From: Microthyrium microscopicum
Lineage: Eukaryota > Ascomycota > Dothideomycetes > Microthyriales > Microthyriaceae
Length of the DNA stretch: 64,000 nt
Reading direction: 5' to 3'
Assembly (NCBI GenBank): GCA_010405405.1
Contig: MU004230.1
Coordinates: forward strand, 3,493,744-3,557,743
Of the stretch, positions 2,769-64,000 are shown one piece after another (the stretch's first letter is position 1; each line of letters starts with the position of its first letter). Made by a program: the position numbers and the translations under genes. A model generated the notes under the pieces. It worked only from the letters and a program-made list of their open reading frames with translations, ran no database searches and was not told the origin of the DNA.

Positions 2769-4486
2769 CTAGAACTTCCGTAGTTGTGCCTTTTGTCGAT
2801 CGCGTACTTCCTTCAAGACTTTGTACGTATCATCCAAACTTGCCATCTGCTCTTCGATTGGCAAATCACTCGTCCCATTTGTCCGGACCATGGCGACCGT
2901 GAGATCTTCACGAATGTAGTCCAGATTTGACTTCATCAGAAGCAATTTTTGACCAAAGTCCTTCAGCACATCTTTATGCTGCGTGGTCTGCAATCGCACA
3001 GTGCCCAACAAATCCCTGTTCTTCTCGAATTTGGTCAACGCATTCTTGCGAGGCCCCATAATGCGGACCCACGCAGAGCTCAGCAGCTCGTTTTCTTCTG
3101 CGTCTTGCTGGTCGACTTCATGGAGAGCGGTGGTGGCGAGATTTTGATAGATTTTGTCGATATCTTCGAATTTTTGATACAGGAGCATGGCGATTTGAAG
3201 CTGTGTGCTGATAGAGCTTTCGACAGCGTTTAGAACTTCGTCAAATGTATACTTTAGTTTTTGGCGGTTGCGTTGGGCGGTGGTGCCGCGGAACATGAAT
3301 TGCATCATGTGGCCGACTGGATTTGGAGTGCCGTCACGGTATTCTGAGATGCCGGCTTGGCTGAGCATTTCTTGGAGATTGTCTGTTATTGTGGTCATGG
3401 ATCCTGGCTGTGTTGGTTCTAGACGGTCTAGGTATCGTTTTGCCCAATCCATCATGTAAATGATTCTATGCTAATCAGTAAAATGATGGGAGATACAGAA
3501 TCGATTCACTCACCCATCTACATCACCTTCAACTTTGGAAAAGAAATCAGTCAGATCGATGACTAGCTTCTTCATGATTTCTGACACTGTGTAAAGATCG
3601 TCTGCAATCTCCTTGCTCTTGTTCAAATTGGAAGCGTATTGAACACTTGCGCCGAGATCATAGACGGCATAACCTGTCGTCTGTAGCTGATTGATTTGCT
3701 TCCGTCCTGAATCAGTGTGATAAATCAACGGCTCAAATGTCTTTGCGACCTCGGCAACCTTTAAAAGGTTGGGAACTGGAGGTGGGCTTGGTGCGCCCAG
3801 TAGCATTTTGAGGGTCCAGTATGCCAATATGACAGTAATGAAAGCATACATGAGTGATTTGGAGTTGAATATAACAGAGTCTACCTTTTCGCGCAACCAT
3901 TGTAAGGCTGATTCGAATGGCTCGGTTCGATGCTGGACTTCTGCTCTGACAGCGAATCGTATAACTAGAGATGTTAATCGATGCTTGTTCGGTTGTTGGC
4001 TAAATACTCACAGTTATTGGGAAGTTCTGGCTGGGCAGATGCATCTCGGTCAAGTGTTGAATCTCTTCTTCTCCGTTGAAGTGAAGCAACGCTTTGTTCT
4101 CTGTGTTGATCTGGAGTTGGCTCGACACTGTAAAGAGGAGTGCCTTTCTCTGGCGAAACCGGTAGCGGGACATTTGCAGGAATCAAAGTGATGTCAATGT
4201 CCTCATCCTCGGTGCCAGTTCTTCGACTTCGGCTTCGCGATTTTGATTTGCGTGGAGTATTGTGTTGTTGCCAGGCGCTAGTTCCCTTGCGCCATGCTGG
4301 TGGTGACCATGGAGTAGAGGATCGTTCTGATTCTGCTTCCGAATCCTCTGACCGGTAGTGCGATCGCGTTGATACCATTGAATGCGCCGGGAGGTACTGA
4401 TCAGGGTCGAAACTCTCAAGTGATACAGCCAGAGATCCAGGATCGTCCAGATAATGGTCGATTTCGGTGGCGCTTCTCGACATCAT
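2769..4486 (-). CDS. Single-pass membrane protein, unknown function
   Basis: Three exons: 4012-4486, 3514-3964, 2769-3465, separated by introns of 47 and 48 nt (donors GTGAGT). The joined frame is open for 540 residues. The N-terminal 160 residues are hydrophilic, with Ser/Arg-rich stretches and several acidic patches. One membrane segment (YAFITVILAYWTLKMLL, about residue 190-210) follows an RFAVRAEVQHRTEPFES segment. The remainder is helical and charged, with likely coiled coil (for example KFEKNRDLLGTVRLQTTQHKDVLKDFGQKL region). No catalytic motif is seen and I do not recognise the family; it looks like a conserved fungal protein of an intracellular membrane. It ends 250 bp from the COQ3 stop (convergent). 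Confidence 0.8.
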
Positions 4487-5347
4487 GGTGGGATATGGAT
4501 TGTATATTCAAGTATGAACAAAGAGTGCATGCGCAACAGTCACCGTTTGCGCCTTTGTAATCCTTTGTATGGGGCGCTCAGAACATTCGTAGTTGAGACA
4601 ATGGCGATTGTGATAACAGTGTCCGCAAGGCTGAAAGATGTCGTCCCAGGCACGATATATCTTCTCAGATGTTGTTCAGGGGCAGCAATGGGATTTGGTG
4701 AGTCGACAGTATATCCAAACTGGGGAGTGAATTTGATGCAAGAGGTACAGTAGCAGTTGGGCAAGACGTGGGGTTAAATTGAAACAAGAGAGGCTGGGCT
4801 GAATGCTGGCACTCCTCGCAAGGGATATCATCGATTGGATGAAAACGCATCTCCCAGACATACGCTACTGCAGGCTTCAAGTCGCGGGAGTTGACTTGGT
4901 GTTGAATGTCTTTGGAGTCTATCACCACTTGATTCTCTACCATATCGTCTGATCTCAGAGTTCCGGTCATGATCAGAAGTATTGGGTTGCTCTTGCTCTT
5001 TAAAGTCAATCGCTCTTTCCCATCTTGAGTGTTGTACCTTCCCAGAGTTGGGTAGTGCCTGCCCTGGCAGCCTTGCGCGACCTCAACCCCTCCTTAATGA
5101 TTGGTGATAGCCAACCCTTGTCTCCAGAGGTGCCTGATAAAATGAACACTGGCTAGCAGCACTATCTACGACTAAGACAGGCTTGCATTCTATCAGGCCC
5201 ATTCAACAGCTTCAGCATCTCAACTTTGCCCGGTGATCCTGGCCTGAATAGAGTTTCAAGAACATCTTCTGCCCTGGCTGCTCGCAGCTACAGAACCATC
5301 CGTCCATATTCTTTTCCGTCTTCATACCCATCGTGTCGCCCGCAATC
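4487..5347. other. Intergenic, divergent promoter region
   Basis: 861 bp between the membrane-protein gene (leftward) and the PWI-domain gene (rightward). Short ORFs here (for example 4665-5009, minus) overlap one another, lack domains and are judged chance. Nothing else is seen. Confidence 0.55.
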
Positions 5348-6828
5348 ATGGCCTCAACTGTTGATGCTAAGCTACTCAAGGCCACCAAATTCCCTCCTTT
5401 CTTCAATGAAAAGGTCGACATGCAAAAGGTCAACACTCAGGTCATGAGAAAGTAAGCTTGCTACTCTTGTTTGCATTGCTATCTTGCTAATCTTTCCCAG
5501 ATGGATTGCCAATCGCATCTCTCAAATCCTTGGGGAGGACGACGATGTTACTATCGAGTTGTGCTTCAACCTACTCGAGGAATCCCGACACGTCAGTCTC
5601 ACATACCCTCCAAATCATACATATCATGCTGAAAATGTTTAGCCCAATATTAAGCACCTTCAAATCCAGCTTACCGGGTTTCTCGAGAAAGATACCCCAG
5701 CATTCTGTGAGGAGCTCTGGAAGCTATGTCTGAGCGCACAGTCTAGTCCACAAGGTGTGCCAAAAGAGCTTCTCGAAGCCAAGAAGCTGGAGCTTCGCCA
5801 GGAAAAGGTTAGACTGATTTCATTGCTGAGAGACTAAAGTTGCTAATCTATCCAAGCTTGAAGCAACAAAAGCCGCCGAAGAAGCCAAACGCCGCCGCGA
5901 AGAGGATCGAATCCGAGAGCTGGATCTGAATAATATGCGACAGCAAGAACGAGGCGATCGATCTCGAGGACGAGGAGGCTTTGGCAGAGACCGACGTGGA
6001 TCCCCGAGAAGAGATAGGTCACCACGCCGTCGGCGAAATAGTCCTCCACCAAGAGCGTTCGATACCTATGTCCCCCGAGGCAGTACGCGCAGAGACGACA
6101 GACCAAGACGACCTGTGCGTAGGTCTCGTAGTCGAACTCGAAGTCCTCCTCCTCCAATTCGCAGCCGGCGAGATAGATCTCCATCAGCACGTTCTTCTGT
6201 TCCTCGTAGTCCAAGTCCACGTCGAGACCGTCGTCGCTCTAGCCGCCATTCTTCGCCTCGTAGCCAGTCTGTCTCACGTTCACGCTCACCACCACGAAAA
6301 GCTCGTAGACGCTCTCCTTCACCTACATCCTCTCGCTCGCGATCTCCCGCCCCGCGTCACAAAAAGCGTCGCGATCGCTCACCTTCGCGCAGTGTCTCCC
6401 GAGAGCGCTCTAGATCTAGATCCAGGTCCCTTACTCTCCGTACAAAGCGCCGCTCACCTAGTCCCAGACGCCGCCGCCTCTCTCACGATCGCCGCCCCTC
6501 TAAGCGTCAACCGCGCAGCGTCACACGCTCTGCTTCTCCCTCCTCTCCTCCAGCTCGGCGCAGCCGTTCCCCTTCTTCACGCTCAGATGGTTCACGCGCT
6601 GACACATCTCGCAAGGGCCCTACTCGTAAAGACAAACGCGATCGGGCAGCAAGCTCAGGTGCTAGTCGCTCAGTGAGCCGATCACGTTCGCGCTCCCGTT
6701 CACCGCCTCGTAAACGACGACGGTCACTACAACGTTTTGCTCCGCGAATGAAAAGACGAGGCGCAGATGATGAGGATGAGCTCTCGGCACCGAAGAGGCA
6801 TAATACTTCTTCTGGAGAGTCAGATTGA
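5348..6828 (+). CDS. PWI-domain SR-related splicing protein (SRRM1-like)
   Basis: Homologue of the splicing co-activator SRm160/SRRM1, a nuclear RNA-binding factor. Exons: 5348-5451, 5501-5591, 5643-5807, 5857-6828; 443 residues. The PWI fold spans about residues 10-110, including KFPPFFNEKVDMQKVN, the signature ...VMRKWIANRISQILG (the W-I of PWI) and ELCFNLLEESRH/PNIKHLQIQLTGFL. A charged helix (EAKRRREEDRIRELD) follows, then a long Arg/Ser domain (about 130-443) with dozens of RS, SR and SP dipeptides. The second intron has a weak donor (GTCAGT) and the third GTTAGA, yet the frame closes exactly. The start ATG is in a good context (atcATGGCC). Confidence 0.9.
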
Positions 6829-28476: not shown

Positions 28477-28571
<95 letters not shown>

Positions 28572-28581
28572 NNNNNNNNNN

Positions 28582-28676
<95 letters not shown>
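28477..28676 (+). repeat. (TAC)n trinucleotide microsatellite
   Basis: An uninterrupted TAC/ACT/CTA array of about 190 sequenced bases, roughly 63 units, broken only by ten N. It lies 164 bp past the DRS2 stop, so it is probably in or just beyond that gene's 3' UTR. The transcript strand would carry (UAC)n. Confidence 0.98.
28572..28581. other. Assembly gap (10 N) inside the microsatellite
   Basis: Ten N in the middle of a perfect repeat; the array's real length is unknown. Confidence 0.99.
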
Positions 28677-42881: not shown

Positions 42882-44457
42882 TCATCGACGAGTTCCATTT
42901 CTTGACTGCCAGTAGTCGTAGTCGAAAGCAACCAACGTTCCAGCAATTGCCATCACTTCGTCGAGCTCTCCTTTGGCATTCTTCATGCTATCACCGAGTC
43001 AGAATTGTTACTATCGTAGGTTCAAGGAAAACTTACCCGGCATGAGCTCTAAAGTCATAGTTGCATTTGATATACATTGAATCTCCGGATTTGAGAGGAA
43101 CGGGCTTGTCGAATGCGCAATGCGTTTGATGGGCAATGTGCTCGCCACCCATACCATGACCTGCGGCCGGAGGTCCCATTTGTCGCTTTGAGTGTGAGTG
43201 ACCACCAGGCATTTCGCTGCTTGGGCTCGCCATTGATCCGCCTGGGCTGGACATTCCTGCTGGTGCGTCTTTGCTATAAGATGCTTGCGATGTGCATACC
43301 GCTTTATTGTCCAGATACACCTGAGTTTCAACGCCACCTATGAAAGATTAGCCAGTGATGCGAGGCATCATCTCTGGGATCTACCTACCATCGTGTAGAT
43401 GCGAGTTTGCTCCAAGGAGGAAACCATCCTTGGGTGTCTTCCAGGGCATCGAATATTCTTCGAATACATCTCTCATAGGCTGTTGGGTGGCGGTCAGGTT
43501 GGTAGGACCAAATGGATTATTGGTGTCCTTTCCAGTGCAGCGGTCTGGTCCAACACTTATCCATACGATTTTGCCTTCCTTCCACTCTGGGTCGAATCCG
43601 TCAATGTAGTTGTAGTCAAGAGTGACCCAGACCCACTTCTCCTTATCTTCCATGTTCATAAGCTCAGTGTTTAGAGCAAATGAATCAGATTTGCGAACAT
43701 GATATGCTGATTTCATGCCTGATTCTGGCGAATAGAACTTGAGATCTGAACGCTCGTTGCCAGACTCAAAAATGTGTTCCGAGTCCTTGTCGCAAGTTGC
43801 ATCTCGAACTTCTTTACCCATATTGACGAGAACGACATGATGTAGCCACGCTCCAGTGACGTTGTTTGGCACCGCTTTGCCATCTTCGTACTCCATGCCA
43901 GCTTTGATATCGAGGATCATGCAATTGTCTTGACCACATGGCTTCCTTGCACCGAACTGGAGAGTGTTGGTCATTCCAGTCGCTTGGAGCATATAATATT
44001 CGACATTCTTTTCGGAAGTGGGAGGGATGCGGTATGGCCCATATCGTATCTTCTTATGTTGAGCTTTGAATTCTGCTGGGTATCGTTTTGAAGGCTCAGC
44101 AAAAACTTCTGCCACTGAGGCCACGGGCTTCTTCTTTCCCAGGCTGGTGATTACATTCCAGAACGATCCGAGATAAGCTGCGGCCTCGCTGCTTTGGCGT
44201 TTTCGAAGATTTAGATTTGATGGGAGGTTCTTTGTGACTGCTTCTAACATTATCCGCGCTACATAACATGGTCAGAACGATACTAAACAGTTTTATCCGC
44301 TTCACTAACCATTCTTAGGCAGAGTATATGGATTTTCTCTGAAATACTGCAACGCCTCCGCTTCAGAGAATGGCTGTTTCTGGACATCAGTTTGTATCAC
44401 AGCCGCACTCCCAGCCTGAACCCCTAGAACGATTGAGACTGCCGTTGAAATCTTCAT
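42882..44457 (-). CDS. Secreted SURNod19-like protein (PHM-like copper fold)
   Basis: Exons: 44310-44457, 43389-44258, 43037-43337, 42882-42987; 474 residues. Seen: signal peptide MKISTAVSIVLGVQAGSAA, then AWLHHVVLVNMG (His pair about 189-190), VWVTLDYNYIDG, GANSHLHDGGVETQVYLDN (His about 336 and 338) and MYIKCNYDFRAHAG ... EVMAIAGTLVAFD. The order HH, HxHxGG, then a C-x-Y/D segment before a terminal beta strand matches what I recall of the stress-up-regulated Nod19 (PF07712) proteins, which are similar to the copper type II PHM domain. A Met/His-rich, low-complexity insert (GMSSPGGSMAS, GGHSHSKRQMGP, GHGMGGEHIAH) could bind copper. All three introns are phase-checked. Upstream Met at 44496 would spoil the signal peptide. 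Enzymatic activity is not established. Confidence 0.65.
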
Positions 44458-49376: not shown

Positions 49377-49421
49377 GGCGCTTTGGCGGTGTGGTTAACG
49401 CGATGCCCTGCTACCACGTTA

Positions 49422-49447
49422 GTAGCGTAACTCACGGCGCAGGGACC
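49422..49447 (+). repeat. Left terminal inverted repeat of the Tc1/mariner element
   Basis: Starts GTAGCGTAACTCACGG just after TA and continues GCGCAGGGACCA. It matches the right end except for a 4-nt length difference near the tip and a few substitutions. Much less RIP-altered than the interior. Confidence 0.8.
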
Positions 49448-50786
49448 AGGTAGCCCCTTTTTAGCTATCACCAACAATAATTATATTCTCTTCAAACCAT
49501 AATTACTTAACCAAAATAGGTCGTAATAATCCTAAAAGACAAGAATATAATACTCCTCAAAAAGCTTGTTTTATTAAAGCTTTAAAAAATAAAGAAAACT
49601 TCCCTTCTTTTAATATTCTTTACAAATCTAAAGGAATTAATATCTCTATAGTAATAGGTCGCTATTAGGCCTTAGAATTCAAAGAATAAGGAGATATTAC
49701 CTATTAAAAGATAAGGAAATAATCTACAAAGCTAGAAGTATCTAAACAAGTCTATAATAAAGAGCTACAAGCTATTCTAAATCCCTTATACCCCCTTTAT
49801 TAAATACTGTTTAAATCTATGCCTTTTAGCCTTTTAAAAAGATAACTTTAGAAGCGATTTTAAGCAATTAGAGCCTATAGGTATAAATAACGAACTACAA
49901 AGAAGATCTCTAAGAAGAATAAGCTTCTTCGTATTACTTATAGTAAACAACATAAAGGCAAAACGATAACTAGCTTCTAGAAGAACATTTACTTTATAGA
50001 TAAAGTATATTTTAACTCTCTTAACTTAGCAAACTATTAGGATTATAAGATATTAAAGCTAAGCTATCCTAAGGATTAATTACTACCTTAAGAACTTAAC
50101 TAATCCTCTTTAAATATAACTCTTTACGTTATAAAGGGGATATTCTATAGAAGGAAGGGATTTTTTAGCTTTTATAATAATTCTACTAAATTAACTACCC
50201 TAAAGCCTTAAGTACTACTAAAACTATAATAAAGGAAGGTAGAAATAAAAGAATAGTTTAAATAACGATATTTAGATTACAAAGTAAGGAAACTACCTAA
50301 AGTTAAGGTAAAGCTAAAGGATAATTTAATAATATAGAAATTCTATATTAATAAGATCCTACTAAAGTATATTAAAGAAATAAAGGCCCTTAAAAAGAAG
50401 TATAACTATAAAATCTAGTTTTAAAAGGATAATAATCTAAGTTATAAAATAAGATCTAAAAAGAATATAGTAATTACTTATAAAATATAGGTAGAATTCT
50501 AGATTATTACTTATCCTACTTAATTACTAGATTTCAATCCTATAGAAGTAGTTTAGAATATTATAAAGGATAGATTACGTAGTAGAAGCTTCTTAAACGT
50601 AGAGGAATTTAAAATAGCAATTAAGGCTAAATAGCAACGAGTAACTATTATAGAAATTTAGCGACGAATTACTAAGATGCCTCAAAGGTACATTAATATA
50701 ATAGAACAACACAGAGAACGTTTAAAGTCTTCGTTGTGGTGATAATCGATTTTATGTAGAATATAATATATTGATTTTTGATGTTG

Positions 50787-50817
50787 TGGCCCCTGCGCCG
50801 TCAATTACGACACCTAC
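50787..50817 (-). repeat. Right terminal inverted repeat of the Tc1/mariner element
   Basis: Reverse complement begins GTAGGTGTCGTAATTGACGG and continues CGCAGGGGCCA, mirroring the left end; TA follows at 50818-50819. Confidence 0.8.
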
Positions 50818-50940
50818 TATGCTACTTTAAGCTAGGCATTTCCTTCGGGGTATGTTTGGATACATTAATGATGTGTGGTCGATCTAACTTTAATAGAGCG
50901 CAGGTTCGAATCCTGCAGGCGTCGGAAATAAATATTAAGG

Positions 50941-50949
50941 TTTTTTTTT
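50941..50949 (+). terminator. Pol III T-run terminator of the tRNA-Ser gene
   Basis: Nine T 16 bases after the discriminator base of the tRNA 3' half, the expected place for RNA polymerase III termination. Confidence 0.75.
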
Positions 50950-57609: not shown

Positions 57610-60600
57610 ATCCAGAGGACAAGAGGATATGAATTAGATATAGAAGACGTACTTAATTTGGCTATATAACGTATATCTTAATGATTAAAGTAAGTTAAGA
57701 TCTTGCCTATTTCTATGCCTTTAGACGTAGTCTACGCTATTAGGTTTGTATAGTGCTAAGGACTATAGGTTAGTAATCTAGCTATTAACTATCTTATAGA
57801 TAATAAAGGTTAAGATATAATCTTAACCTTATATATAAATAAACCTTTTACTAATAGATTTCCTACTACTTAATTTCCTCTTTGTTAGTTATAGTAGACT
57901 TACTACCTTTAGTTTCCTTACTTTTTCCTTTAGTGCCTTTACTCTCCTCTTTATTATCCTCTAGTATATTATCTAAAAATAGTTCCTATTTAGGTTAGAT
58001 AGTTAATAATAAGTTATATTCCTCTTTAGGCTATTCCTTTTTATAAAGAATCTTATATATCTTTATATATATTAAACGTAGCATTAGGTAATAAGTACCT
58101 ATATTTAGGTCTTTAACTTTATTTCGTTATAAAGTAGGTAAGGGCTATAGTAGGCTATAAGTAGTTAGTAGCGTAGTATTAGAAGATATTATTAGCTCTA
58201 AGGATAAGAAGCCTATTTAATTATATTCTTACTATATTAGATAATATATAAACTAAAGACTATAAAGCTATATGTCTTCTTATTAAATTATATTATTATA
58301 GACCTATTATATAGATAGATTTTGCTACCTAACTTCGTTAAGTAGTTATTTAGCTTCTAAATTATTAGGGTGTCTATATTCTTTAAGATTATTATAATCC
58401 CTATATTAATTATTTATTATGACTTTCTCTATAATAAAGTTATTAATTAAAGTAGATATTTTAACTAGTGCTTTCTTAGGTATAATATTATCCTCTTAGG
58501 GCACTATTATTAATTAAGGCATACTATTTAATAGTTTACTATAGTACTTAGTTTCTTTAGGTAGTTTATTAGTATAGAATTTAAATTAATTATTATAGTT
58601 ACTATCCTTCTTGTTATTATCTATCTAGTTACTACTAGAGTTAATATTTATATAATCTTATAGCTATAGTAGATAATTACTATTATATTACTATTTATTT
58701 TTATATTTACTTATAGGTAGAGTAAGTTAAACTAATAGGTTGTTAAGGAAGTAGTCTAGTAGTAAATAATCTAAGTGCTCTATTATATAGTCTATAAGTT
58801 TATTACGTTATTATTAAATAGTATTATTTTCTTATAGTAAGGCCTTAACGTACTATTAAACTTACTTATTACGTTCTATTGTCTACTTTTAGACTTATTC
58901 TAGTATTAAGTTTTAATTAAACTTAGTTATAGCTACCTTATTAGCTATGCCTATTAGCTATTTCTAAGTATCTCTAAGATAGTCTAGTCTTAAGTCCTAG
59001 TATATAACTTTCTTATTTTTAATAATAAATATTATATTTTACTAATACTAAAGTAGATTATTATACATAACGTTAATAGGGTTAAAGCTTCTTAGTCTAG
59101 GGTAAGTAAATATATTCTAGACTACCTATCTTAAGAGAGTAGCTATAAATTTATTCTTAGCGTTATAGAATAGCTTTATAATCTTTCTATATTAAGTAAA
59201 GTACCTAGTATTATTTAGTAGTACTAGTAATTTACTAATAAAATCTAGATTCTTCTCCTTATATATAAGTTCTTAGATTATTCTATTACTTACATAGACC
59301 TTATAGAATTTTAGTAATAGTCTAATTAGCTCTAGGCGTCTTATATACGCCTAAAGAGGCCTACTAATTATAATTTAACTTTATTATAAAAAATAGTAAT
59401 ATCCTTAATTCTTATAAACTAATTAACCTTTTGCTATCTTATAGTTATATTAAAGTTAAACTTAGGTTCTTGCCTAGGTTAGATACTTAATAAAGATATT
59501 TAGCTTCTAAAGGCTTATCTTGCCTTTACTCTTTTTTAATATATAGTGTTATATAATTATTTTAATAGTAGCTATAATTTTTAGGAAAGGCTTTAGTTAT
59601 AGAGGATATTTTATTACTAGTAGAATTCCTAAGTCTATCTTAAGATATTTAATTTCTAGATTAGGTTTATAAAGCTATATTTATAGGATTTTACTATCTA
59701 TATGATTCTATAGCTATTCTTTTAGTATATAGTACTTATCTCTATCCTAATCTAGGCTATGTACTATCTTTAGTTTTGTCTTTTTCTTTAGCTCATTTTC
59801 TAGTTATTCTTATTATATTTAGGCATCTTTAAGGGCCTATATAGTAGTATATATATTTTCTATTAAGAAGTTTAGTAATAAACTTAGTCCTGCTTTTATA
59901 TTAGATAAGCTTAGAGAGATTAGATTTTTATTAATTTGCTCTACTCTCTAATATAATAGAGAGGCTCTACTTTCTATCTTTTTCTATAAAAAAGGTTATA
60001 TAAAGGATAGTAATATTAGATTATTAATCCTAATTAGTAGATTTTGGAATATAGTAATAGTTTCTAGCCTAGAAGTAACCTTATCTTCTTTACTAGTAGC
60101 TATTAAGTTAAATTAAACTTATTTAGCTACTAGTTTGACTAGTAATCTATTTGCCTAAACTTAGACTTTTTACTTATCTATAGTAATAGAAGATTCTATA
60201 ATAGTTATATAGGAATTAGCTATATCTTAATATAATTAGGGTTATTTAATCCTCCTTAAATTTGCTACTTTACTTTAGGGTATTAAAATATCTAGCTCTT
60301 CCTTATTCTTCTTACGTACTTATACCTATAAGACGTATTCTACCTATTAGAGGGAGTTATTATTATCTTTAAACTCTAAGTTATCTTTTGCATTAACTTA
60401 TTAGTATAATAGTAGACTATACTAGGCGTTAAGCATCTTAAGTTAGTAATTAGAAGAAATTACGTCTTCTATATAAAGCTAAGTATAATAAGTAGCTTTT
60501 CTTGTGTCGTTTAAAATATATAGAAACTTACGTATATTAGCTTGCTACTAATTAAAAATAGTTTTAATATTAGTTTAATCTATATATTTTTATTCTTAGA

Positions 60601-63600
60601 GTTTAATAGAATCTAAGTTATATATAACTATATACTTTCGTACCTAACCTTAGTAGACTAGAAACGTAAATATTCTATGTTAGATAAGAACTCTTAAACG
60701 TAGGTTAAGGCGCTCTTATACCTTATTTAATTCATCTACTAGATCTTAAGTATTCTACTTTTCCTTATCTATTGCCCTAAGAATAGCTAGTCTTTACTAG
60801 ATCTTTTCCTTAAGATAGTTTACTACCTTCTCTAGCTTCTACTTATTATTAAGTTTTGCTACCTACTTATTATAATTTAGCTAGTTATATTTTAGAATAT
60901 TTAGTTCTTTCTCTTGCTAAGCTTAATTGCTCGCATTTATTTCTTTTACTAACTAATACTCTTCTCTATATTCTCTAATTAGATTTAGGTAGGAGTTAGT
61001 TATTAAGAAATACTTTTTAGTCTATATATATTATACTAAATATAAATAAGTTAAGTTAGCTACCTTTTGCGCTTTATATATAGAATTATAGTAATTATTT
61101 TATAATTATTTATTATTTGTACTTAGTTTAATAAATAAGCTCTCTAGGAAGTCTCTTAAGAGATCCTTTAGCTAAAGTACTATATTAGTTTTTAGCGTAA
61201 GTTATTATTGCTTAGTAGTATCTACTAGATCTACTATTTTTAATAGTAATGTTAAAATCTATTAATATATCTTTATATAGTATTTATCCTTATAATCTTA
61301 GAATATCTTATTATAAAGTATAGTATAAAGGAAATAGAGTAATTTAATTTAAAGAAGTAGGGTATGTGCTAGTAGGTAAATAATTTATCTCTTTCTTAAT
61401 TAAATATTAGTACCTACTTAGAGAGGTTACGCTTAGATCCTTAGATCTTTAAAGCTAAATATTTTGTTAACTCTTTACTAGCCTTCTTAGGAGGTAATTA
61501 TAACTTTTAAAATTAGAAGCTCCTAATTACGTTTAAATACATAGAAGTAGTGACTTTATTTCCTATAGTAAGAGATCTAAAGCTAGCTCCTAGGTTATTA
61601 AATTCTTAAAGGTTTACGTTATTAAGTTAGACTTTTATTTGCTCGCTAGTATTGATTATATTCCCTTATAAGTATATTGTTAAAATCTAGCTTCCTTAAT
61701 TTAGTATATTTAAATTCCTATTATATAACTCTAAAGAAAAAGCTATTATTAAATAGATAGAGGTATAGAGTATTAGAATTTTATAGCTAAGCTATTCTAT
61801 AGATAATAAAGGTTATTATTAGGTCTCTAAGATAGTATAGGGAGTTAACTTTATTCTTTAGGTTCTATAGGGTCCTATATATATTTTGCTTAGTTAGAAA
61901 TAGTATATTTAAAGGCATAGTAGCGCCTAAATTAGCTATATAGCTTTTCTTAAGAAAATATATTACTATAGCTCTTCTTAAGAATCTTTACTGCTACGTT
62001 TAGCTAAACTATAGATATTAAATAGTATCCTAGCTAATTATAAATCTATTAATATTTGTAATATAAAGGTACTATGTTTAAACTAATAGAAGCATAGGGT
62101 TATTTATATACTTCTTAGAATATTATATTTAGAATATCTTCCTCTACTAGGAGTATAGAGATATTTGCATACCTTTTAGAATATTATACTTAGAATATCT
62201 TCCTCTACTATAGAAATATAATCTCCTCTACTAGGGTGTTATTAAACTAATAGTAGTACTTCTAGTTATTTTAGACGTATCTAGTCTTATAGAAGAATGC
62301 TTTATCTTAAGTTACGTTATAGAAGATCTATTAATCTTTTACTTTCTCTATAAGTCTTTATAAAGTATTTATATCATTTCATCCCTAGGTTCTATCTTTA
62401 CTAGGTACTTTATAGCCCTATTATTAAATAGATAGGCGTAGTTTATTATATTTTCTAAGTACTTAGGATTTATTCTATCTTAGTATACGTTAGAGTATAT
62501 TTAAACTTATAGTAAATATATATATAGCATTTTTGCGTTTCTATAAGGAGTAGTATTATAGAATAAATACTCCTTTATATAATACTTAGTATCGTCTTAG
62601 CTATCTATCTAGAGAGTAATATTCTAAATTATATATTATAAAAGAAAAGTATTATATTTTAGTATTTATCGTAGTGTATTTAAACTAATAGTAGTAGTTT
62701 AACTCCCTATAGTCTAGAAATTTCTTAATAATCTATTAAAGTAGAAAACAGCTTACTAGCCTTATTATTAAATAGATAGGTGTAGGCAATTTACTAGGCT
62801 AGGATTTTCTTTTAACTAGTTTTCTAGTCTAGTTATCGTATAATTTAAATCTTTCTATAGAATAGGAGTAATAGTTTAATAATAGATATATATTTTGCTA
62901 GTTAGCTACCCTTACTAGTAACTTACTTATTATAGTTCTTACTTAGCTTACGCCTTAGGAGCTAAATATATCTAATAGCTCATTATATAGAAATACTAAT
63001 CCCATTTTACGAACCTTCTTACTTACCCTATTTAAATTTAGCTTATAATAATACTAATATTCTAGGTTATTATCCTTCTTATTATTTAGGCTAGATTGTT
63101 TAGATCTTTATGGCTACTCTTATCTTTATTTAGGAACTTCCTTATCTTTAAGCTCTTTAAACTCTAGTAGCTACTCTTATTTTAATACGTTCTACTAAAT
63201 AGGTATATTGCTTTGTAATCCCTTTATTTATTCTTCTAGATCTTCTAGAATCTAAGGAAATTCCCCCTTTTTTAGATAGATCTTTAGATTATCTAAGTAT
63301 TATCGTATATCTTTATAAGTTTAACCTAGGAAGATTCCTTTTATTATAACTATCTAGCTATTATCGTTAAGAGACTCTACTATATAGGGCCTAGCTTATC
63401 GTAGCTAAAAGGCTTAGCTTCTTTATTTATCTAGATAGACTTCCCTTATAAGCACTAGATTTCTTAGCTTTATATTATTATTACTTACTAGAAGGTTTTT
63501 GCTAAAGTGTTATATTACTTTAGTAGAGCGATTTTCTATAGTGTGCTCTCTAATTTTATCTAGCTAGGCTAGCCTTATTATCTAATTTACTTAAGCTACT

Positions 63601-64000
63601 ATATTAAGCCTTAATGAGTTAACTTCTTCTTATAAACCTAGGTCTATTACTAATTGCCTAAGTTCCTTATTAACTATAAAGTCCTATGTTCTTTAAGGTT
63701 AAAATTTGTATAATAGTATTTTAGATATATATTCTTCTACTTTTAATAGTCTGCCTACTAGTATTTTAAACTACTAGTTTACTACTTTATACTAGTACTT
63801 TAGCTATTTAGGATAATTAAGGATATATTTAACTATTTCTACTTTAACTATATAGACTAGCTTTTTAATAAAACTAGTAAAAGAAGGATAATATAGTAAA
63901 CTAAAGAATATCTTTATTGCGTTAAGCTTAAGCTTATTTATAAACTTTCTATTCTAGAATTAGGCACTATTATCTAAGAAAGTAGTTAGTAGATATCTAG
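57610..64000. repeat. AT-rich, RIP-like repeat block with degraded transposons
   Basis: 6.4 kb to the window end without any gene. It is dominated by TA, with CA and TG almost absent while some CG remains, the pattern left by RIP acting on CpA. Residual coding character appears on the minus strand in several places. Near 63.24-63.50 kb it vaguely resembles an integrase C-terminal region, so an LTR-retroelement fossil is possible, possibly with more than one nested element. Family and ends cannot be fixed; it is heavily broken and old. Short internal repeats occur at 61.7-62.8 kb. Probably heterochromatic. Confidence 0.7.
62115..62210. repeat. Direct repeat inside the AT-rich block
   Basis: A 35-bp unit (ttagaatattatatttagaa... 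ending ctcctctacta-like) at 62115-62149 recurs at 62176-62210 with one mismatch, 61 bp apart. Confidence 0.8.

Follow-up and report, generated by a model that had tools for sequence, protein, structure and literature searches.

U2-type introns probably interrupt many nuclear tRNA genes of Microthyrium microscopicum, including one for tRNA-Ser(GCU) whose 37/38 intron contains a transposon

Passages of the review PMC4090602 describe a protein endonuclease as removing the introns of eukaryotic nuclear tRNA genes, which mostly occur at one site, and suppose non-canonical introns to be rare in eukaryotes, with nucleomorphs and Cyanidioschyzon merolae as exceptions; the letters "spliceosom" are absent from its main text. 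In the relevant part of PMC11782384, archaeal-type introns are assigned to tRNA genes and spliceosomal introns to other genes. The spliceosome acts on a non-Pol II RNA in the case of fission yeast U6 (PMC10484740, in excerpt), and lichen rDNA carries spliceosomal introns that have been called "ectopic" and that, once placed in yeast rRNA, were removed by yeast from the Pol I transcripts (PMC8527467, in excerpt), the word tRNA being absent from the main text of the latter paper. A literature search, with most subscription journals outside it, turned up no paper describing nuclear tRNA genes that carry spliceosomal introns. As far as could be seen, the intron type considered here is known, and its host gene class, the nuclear tRNA gene, is apparently new.

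The window, the whole stretch of 64,000 nucleotides that was analysed, lies on contig C1 of the 36.9-Mb genome (20 contigs) of M. microscopicum, a Dothideomycete of the Microthyriales. An ORF of 348 aa matches a protein of this species at 95%, and an ORF of 837 aa matches the species at 100%. The window contains a TAC triplet repeat of about 67 copies (28477-28676) and an AT-rich block with 23-25% GC (58001-64000), typical of RIP-mutated repeats. It also contains a tRNA-Ser(GCU) gene. Judged from the DNA, it is very likely (with a probability of roughly 0.86) that many nuclear tRNA genes of this fungus carry U2-type introns, and that the Ser(GCU) gene has one of them in addition to a transposon in its 37/38 intron. 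What deserves attention at the locus is not the transposon but the fact that tRNA genes of this genome carry introns of the mRNA type.

An earlier, sequence-only reading had joined the two halves of the Ser(GCU) gene into one and placed a DNA transposon between its exons, inside the 37/38 intron. Both proposals hold. The halves pair with each other across the insert, with an acceptor stem of 7 bp that includes two G-U pairs (GGCGCTT/AGGCGTC), an anticodon stem ATGCC/GGCAT, a T stem GCAGG/CCTGC, and G73, and the Pol III terminator that had been proposed is found downstream as a T9 run (Table 1). In the intact window, neither ARAGORN nor Rfam at its gathering threshold reports any hit, and the only Rfam tRNA match listed for the uncut locus, at 16.5 bits, falls short of the cut-off of 29. 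Loose ARAGORN settings gave only low-threshold calls on the uncut gene, and a Ser(GCT) call with a 127-nt intron among them was judged spurious and not used.

It had been expected that removal of the element would restore the tRNA, which is not what happens. With the originally proposed stretch alone removed, six different ARAGORN settings all fail to yield a tRNA-Ser(GCU), and the score of a home-made cloverleaf scorer is 29.4. Removal of the exact transposon alone leads to no call or to a Tyr call, and to a score of 29.9. The reason is that a second insert, of the GT-AG type, which had been overlooked, also splits the variable arm. When this insert of 47 nt is removed together with the transposon, ARAGORN (introns allowed) reports Ser(GCT) with a 9-nt intron, and the score rises to 52.4. 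Excision of the 47 nt creates TTCCTTCGGGAGC, which is also the variable arm of L024, an uninterrupted tRNA-Ser(AGA) gene. The 47-nt insert lies in the variable arm, and the 37/38 position is occupied by the separate 9-nt intron that bears the transposon.

Alignment with another Ser(GCU) gene of the genome had been suggested as a check. Such a gene exists in the paralog L008. A GT-AG insert of 48 nt occupies the variable-arm site of the window insert in L008, and a further GT-AG insert of 49 nt lies in its D arm (GTGAGA...CCTAAC...CAG). The window copy lacks the D-arm insert, and its sequence there equals the spliced L008 product, so that it represents an exact empty site. The mature Ser(GCU) sequences of the two genes differ at 2 of 81 bases, and the 37/38 intron of L008 is 16 nt long. 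The D-arm insert cannot be explained as a decayed 5' end, since the full acceptor is present upstream of it.

The survey was extended to the whole genome. Candidates were taken from Rfam tRNA searches (63 of 1477 candidates were scored in one of them, which makes the counts lower bounds) and from B-box patterns (100 listed of 198 places, and further lists of 44 and 69). The resolved set comprises 33 tRNA genes, in an incomplete census that has none for Asp, Tyr, Trp, Cys and elongator Met. Sixteen genes are uninterrupted (L009-L018, L022-L026, L102); L017 is Leu according to ARAGORN, but Glu(UUC) in the cloverleaf scoring. The other 17 carry 19 inserts of 47-56 nt, located in acceptor, D, anticodon, variable and T arms. 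An ordinary 37/38 intron is also present in the window gene, in L008 and in several other interrupted genes. The Leu genes L063 and L066 have a common 3' flank, introns at different sites and different anticodons.

Some tRNA-like sequences were left out of the 33 genes. These include 13 of the 32 hits of one Rfam search (L019-L021, L027-L029, L032, L033, L035-L037, L116, L121), which are dispersed, mostly AT-mutated tRNA-like repeats, although L019 and L020 parse intact at 50.3. Other weak Rfam tRNA matches were also left out, as was L091, an AT-rich locus that parses as uninterrupted with anticodon GCT and with a score (33.7) below that of all real genes. The dispersed repeats L019-L021, L027-L029, L032, L033, L035, L037 and L118-L121 (GGGGGAGTAGTACAG...) are variably mutated and possibly a SINE. 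A second, AT-rich family of tRNA-like repeats (L036, L113, L114, L116) is also matched by the tRNA model.

Table 1. Features of the window tRNA-Ser(GCU) gene, and sites of the 47-56 nt inserts in the interrupted tRNA genes of the genome.
Feature or gene	Coordinates	Strand	Site	Basis or remark
tRNA-Ser(GCU) 5' exon, positions 1-37	49377..49413	+		cloverleaf pairing with 3' parts
Anticodon GCT, in 5' exon	49410-49412	+		
Target-site duplication CTAC, left copy	49411..49414	+		flank comparison
RIP-mutated terminal-inverted-repeat DNA transposon, 1407 bp	49415..50821	.	37/38 intron	other copies
Right CTAC (50822-50825) and remaining 37/38 intron (TTTAAGCT)	50822..50833	+		
Exon: position 38, anticodon 3' strand GGCAT, variable arm 5' part TTCCTTCGGG	50834..50849	+		
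47-nt GT-AG insert, GTATGT...ATCTAAC...TAG, putative spliceosomal intron	50850..50896	+	variable arm	homology to L024 and L008
3' exon: variable arm remainder, T arm, acceptor 3' strand, G73	50897..50924	+		
T9 run, likely Pol III terminator	50941..50949	+		
Ser(GCU), window			variable arm	
Ser(GCU), L008			D arm and variable arm	
Ser(UGA), L038			acceptor	
Leu(UAG), L063			10/11	
Leu(AAG), L066			anticodon stem	
Leu(UAA), L079			D arm	
Leu(CAA), L083			10/11	
Gln(CUG), L070			D loop	
Gln(UUG), L126 (also L112)			8/9	GC-AG
Lys(CUU), L071			31/32	
Pro(CGG), L082			10/11	
Arg(CCG), L030			9/10	
Arg(UCU), L031			T stem	
Arg(ACG), L125 (also L110)	C14:232365-232977	minus	32/33 and acceptor	
Val(UAC), L123			T stem	
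Gly(CCC), L034			acceptor	with mismatch
Pro-like, L081			T stem	only this insert placed; no anticodon reading

The inserts share the signals of U2-type introns. Seventeen of them have GT-AG ends, one has GC-AG (GCAAGT) and one GT-TG, so that GT-AG or GC-AG ends together with the 5' splice-site consensus are found in 18/19; the exception is intron 1 of the Arg(ACG) gene L125, which would need a TG 3' end. All 19 have a branch-like motif near the 3' end (CTAAC in 14, CTAAT in 2, CTGAC in 2 and TTAAC in 1), which conforms to CTNAY in 18/19, reads ATCTAAC in the window insert, and is separated from the intron end by about 10 nt. Four mRNA introns of the same species, placed with the help of annotated proteins, are 44, 49, 51 and 88 nt long and contain CTAAC or CTAAT. 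The tRNA inserts match them in form, with the mRNA introns spreading more widely in length (88 nt). The ORF at 43381 did not serve as a source of mRNA introns, its protein matches including none from its own locus. The gene for U6, which is a Pol III product and serves as a positive control, contains a 53-nt GT-AG intron (GTACGT...TACTAAC...TAG) directly 3' of ACAGAGAAGA (L122, C8:343259-343413, minus strand). All seven 5S rRNA genes that were found are uninterrupted. Intron-like motifs number 25 in the window, against a null mean of 16.1 and a maximum of 24, a weak excess that is not used as proof. The two introns of L125 resemble each other, with a score of 21 where the highest of 950 null values is 12.5; a lesser resemblance links the introns of L030 and L083 (score 16). 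A genome search found no other copy of the L125 gene stretch. The likeness of the two introns within one Arg gene hints at intron duplication, and suggests that the introns may be able to copy themselves.

The boundaries were tested by scoring the product of every deletion of 36-72 nt with the cloverleaf scorer, without assuming GT-AG, in 16 tests of single inserts. As calibration, scores of 44.2-59.5 were obtained for 15 of the 16 uninterrupted genes (the T-loop rule skips the gene for initiator Met), and the best of 314 background stretches scores 16.5. The GT-AG excision is the sole best among 4,067-5,691 products in seven tests (L071, L079, L030, L031, L038, L123 and the L008 D arm) and one of 2-13 tied best products in five more (L063, L066, L070, L082, L083). 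In these 12 successful tests, GT-AG deletions make up 0.27-0.72% of all products, and the product of the chances is about 4e-26. The four misses are the variable-arm inserts of the window gene and of L008, L126 and L034. For the two variable-arm inserts, 10 other deletions score slightly above the GT-AG one, because the structure leaves the boundaries in this arm unfixed; there, the boundaries rest on the homology with L024. In L126, GC-AG rather than GT-AG is among two tied best products, and in the Gly(CCC) gene L034 the GT-AG fit needs an A4-C69 mismatch, the structural best being one base off. L071 can alternatively be parsed with a 44-nt 37/38 intron, at a score of 52.6 versus 58.8 with the GT-AG excision.

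Since the interrupted candidates had first been spotted by eye as GT-AG, a census control was run on 113 B-box loci, on both strands. At a score of at least 38, five loci parse intact, and in seven GT-AG is equal best (L063, L066, L070, L071, L079, L082, L083). The same score is reached by L081 and L110, each of which needs two introns, and by chance by the AT-rich L108 (38.0). ARAGORN, which is independent of the cloverleaf scorer, was given the exon-joined forms of 15 interrupted genes (those other than L034 and L081) and assigns the predicted anticodon to 15/15. The cloverleaf score after excision is 51.7-60.6 in 16 genes; before excision it is at most 36.8, or there is none, with the exception of L071 (52.6).

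Among other explanations for the inserts, the least improbable is that they belong to the ectopic tRNA introns known from Archaea, the red alga C. merolae and nucleomorphs, and that the tRNA splicing endonuclease recognises them by bulge-helix-bulge (BHB) motifs and cuts them there. Their positions in D, anticodon and T arms do resemble those of the ectopic introns described in passages of PMC4090602, and among the 18 junctions tested, those of L066 and L031 reach 3/4 pairs in both helices. These are the only two that pass, at a chance of 3.2% each, so that the motif is not general, and the window insert junction forms 0/4 central and 2/4 outer pairs. Moreover, cleavage at BHB motifs needs neither the GT..CTAAC..AG pattern, nor the narrow length range of 47-56 nt, nor a distance of about 10 nt from branch to end, all of which are spliceosomal signals. 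We therefore regard this explanation as very improbable.

It is slightly more improbable that insertions have killed the interrupted copies, and that intact genes elsewhere supply the tRNAs. In favour of decay, the window gene contains a transposon and has T at position 14, where L008 has A, a sign of decay; short insertions in D and T arms of eukaryotic tRNA genes are mostly deemed pseudogenes in passages of PMC4090602; and the genome searches give lower bounds. For the window copy itself, the sequence-only reading had suggested that the insert stops expression, which is probable: in view of the T5, T6 and T5 runs at 49458, 50161 and 50775, all located 5' of the variable-arm insert, and of the A14 to T change, this copy is probably dead and no longer expressed. 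As a general account, decay has against it the exons, which still form a cloverleaf in 16/17 interrupted genes, and the common splice signals of the inserts. The flanks also speak against it, since terminator and TATA signals occur there at rates like those of intact genes. A run of at least five T within 30 nt downstream is present in 13/17 interrupted and 13/16 uninterrupted genes, compared with 10/570 in the background, and TATA[AT] at about -45 to -19 in 7/17, 6/16 and 23/570, respectively.

The supply of intact genes that decay would require was not found either. Searches of the genome with the joined sequences of Ser(GCU) and Gln(UUG) detected no uninterrupted gene for either; apart from Ser(AGA), their matches were limited to the window gene and to the Gln gene that is interrupted. 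A joint genome search with 14 interrupted tRNAs likewise found no uninterrupted copy. This search and the Ser(GCU) search missed L008, so that they set lower bounds and an uninterrupted copy could escape them. All Leu (4/4), Gln (2/2) and Ser(GCU) (2/2) genes that were found are interrupted. Three long ORFs of the window contain 23, 29 and 48 AGC and AGT codons, and a Ser(GCU) tRNA is thus needed. Apart from the probably dead window copy, the only source of it that was found is L008, with its two GT-AG introns and a 37/38 intron, from which we infer that L008 is spliced. The Pol III A box lies at tRNA positions 8-19, and six introns (L126, L030, L063, L082, L083, L070) fall within this range. 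The splitting of the A box in six genes counts against the spliceosomal reading and would need explaining. Also against it are T5 runs inside the introns of L082, L083, L030 and L126, which could stop Pol III, and the uninterrupted state of the 5S rRNA genes.

The ends of the transposon and its duplications were determined by comparing the flanks of its copies by eye. The other copies place the limits a few bases outside the previously proposed 49422-50819. The insertion had been attributed to a Tc1/mariner element at a TA, an assignment that the ends of the other copies do not support: the duplication is CTAC, and a 4-bp duplication is found in 4/5 copies (GGCC, GGCT and AGAT at three others), the fifth being ambiguous by a base. 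The empty site is accordingly a 9-nt intron, CTTTAAGCT, at 37/38, and not one of 22 nt; its AGC can pair with the GCU anticodon, as had been pointed out. The shared core of the element has 27% GC. Over about 1387 bp, it shares 80.5-83.4% identity with each of four further copies (L002-L005), and two partial relatives are more distant (69 and 65% identity). Differences among the copies are mostly transitions (328/429 two-state columns), the pattern that RIP would give. Matches to the Pfam DDE_3 domain are below the Pfam cut-off in the window element (E 0.023) and in L006 (E 0.0062), and there is none in L007 (three plus-strand frames) or L002 (two frames examined). Classification as Fot1/pogo-like is unsupported. 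In L002-L005, the left terminal repeats contain TACTAAC followed by CAG, and the right ends of some copies GTGAGT, which resemble splice signals. That the locus is unusual only in having a tRNA intron with a Tc1/mariner insertion, as terminal repeats and the weak DDE_3 match might suggest, is barely credible, given the 4-bp duplication instead of TA, the tRNA that is not restored unless the second insert is removed, and the independent inserts of L008, which occur without any transposon.

The inserts in the Pol III tRNA genes of M. microscopicum are thus most likely spliceosomal introns, in view of the DNA anatomy, the splice and branch signals, the exact empty sites in paralogs, and the needed tRNAs for which no uninterrupted copy was detected. 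A tRNA gene with such introns would be transcribed by Pol III, and the GT-AG intron would be taken out in the nucleus by the spliceosome, as in the case of fission yeast U6 pre-RNA. Only then would the tRNA fold and its ends be trimmed, and the 37/38 intron would be cut last, by the tRNA splicing endonuclease. This order is suggested because the endonuclease is considered, in passages of PMC4090602, to measure from the tRNA body. It is likely that spliceosomal introns have invaded the nuclear tRNA set, and that translation would depend on a spliceosome that acts on Pol III transcripts ahead of the endonuclease. If needed tRNAs require the spliceosome, mRNA splicing would be directly tied to translation. 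The reading, if true, would challenge the view of spliceosomal splicing as bound to Pol II, and it would offer a natural test bed for intron gain, with paralogs that have or lack introns at known sites, and with very short exons. As standard tRNA finders miss the interrupted genes here, other fungi with seemingly incomplete tRNA sets may hide the same situation.

Ordinary nuclear tRNA introns have a fixed position at 37/38 and no GT-AG or branch signal, unlike the 47-56 nt inserts of M. microscopicum. The tRNA genes of C. merolae and nucleomorphs are similar in that a single gene of nuclear type may have several introns, with the D, anticodon and T arms as their sites (PMC4090602, PMC9602550, both in excerpt). 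However, the introns of C. merolae are attributed there to the tRNA splicing endonuclease and BHB motifs, whereas in M. microscopicum 16/18 junctions fail to form the BHB and spliceosomal signals are present. In ascomycetes and lichen fungi, the nuclear rDNA likewise provides a non-mRNA gene with spliceosomal introns, but the transcript is a Pol I rRNA and not a tRNA. Fungal U6 introns are alike in being spliceosomal introns in a Pol III gene, and M. microscopicum U6 has one itself. The difference is that U6 is part of the spliceosome, whereas here the hosts are tRNAs, with introns in 17 genes and at many positions.
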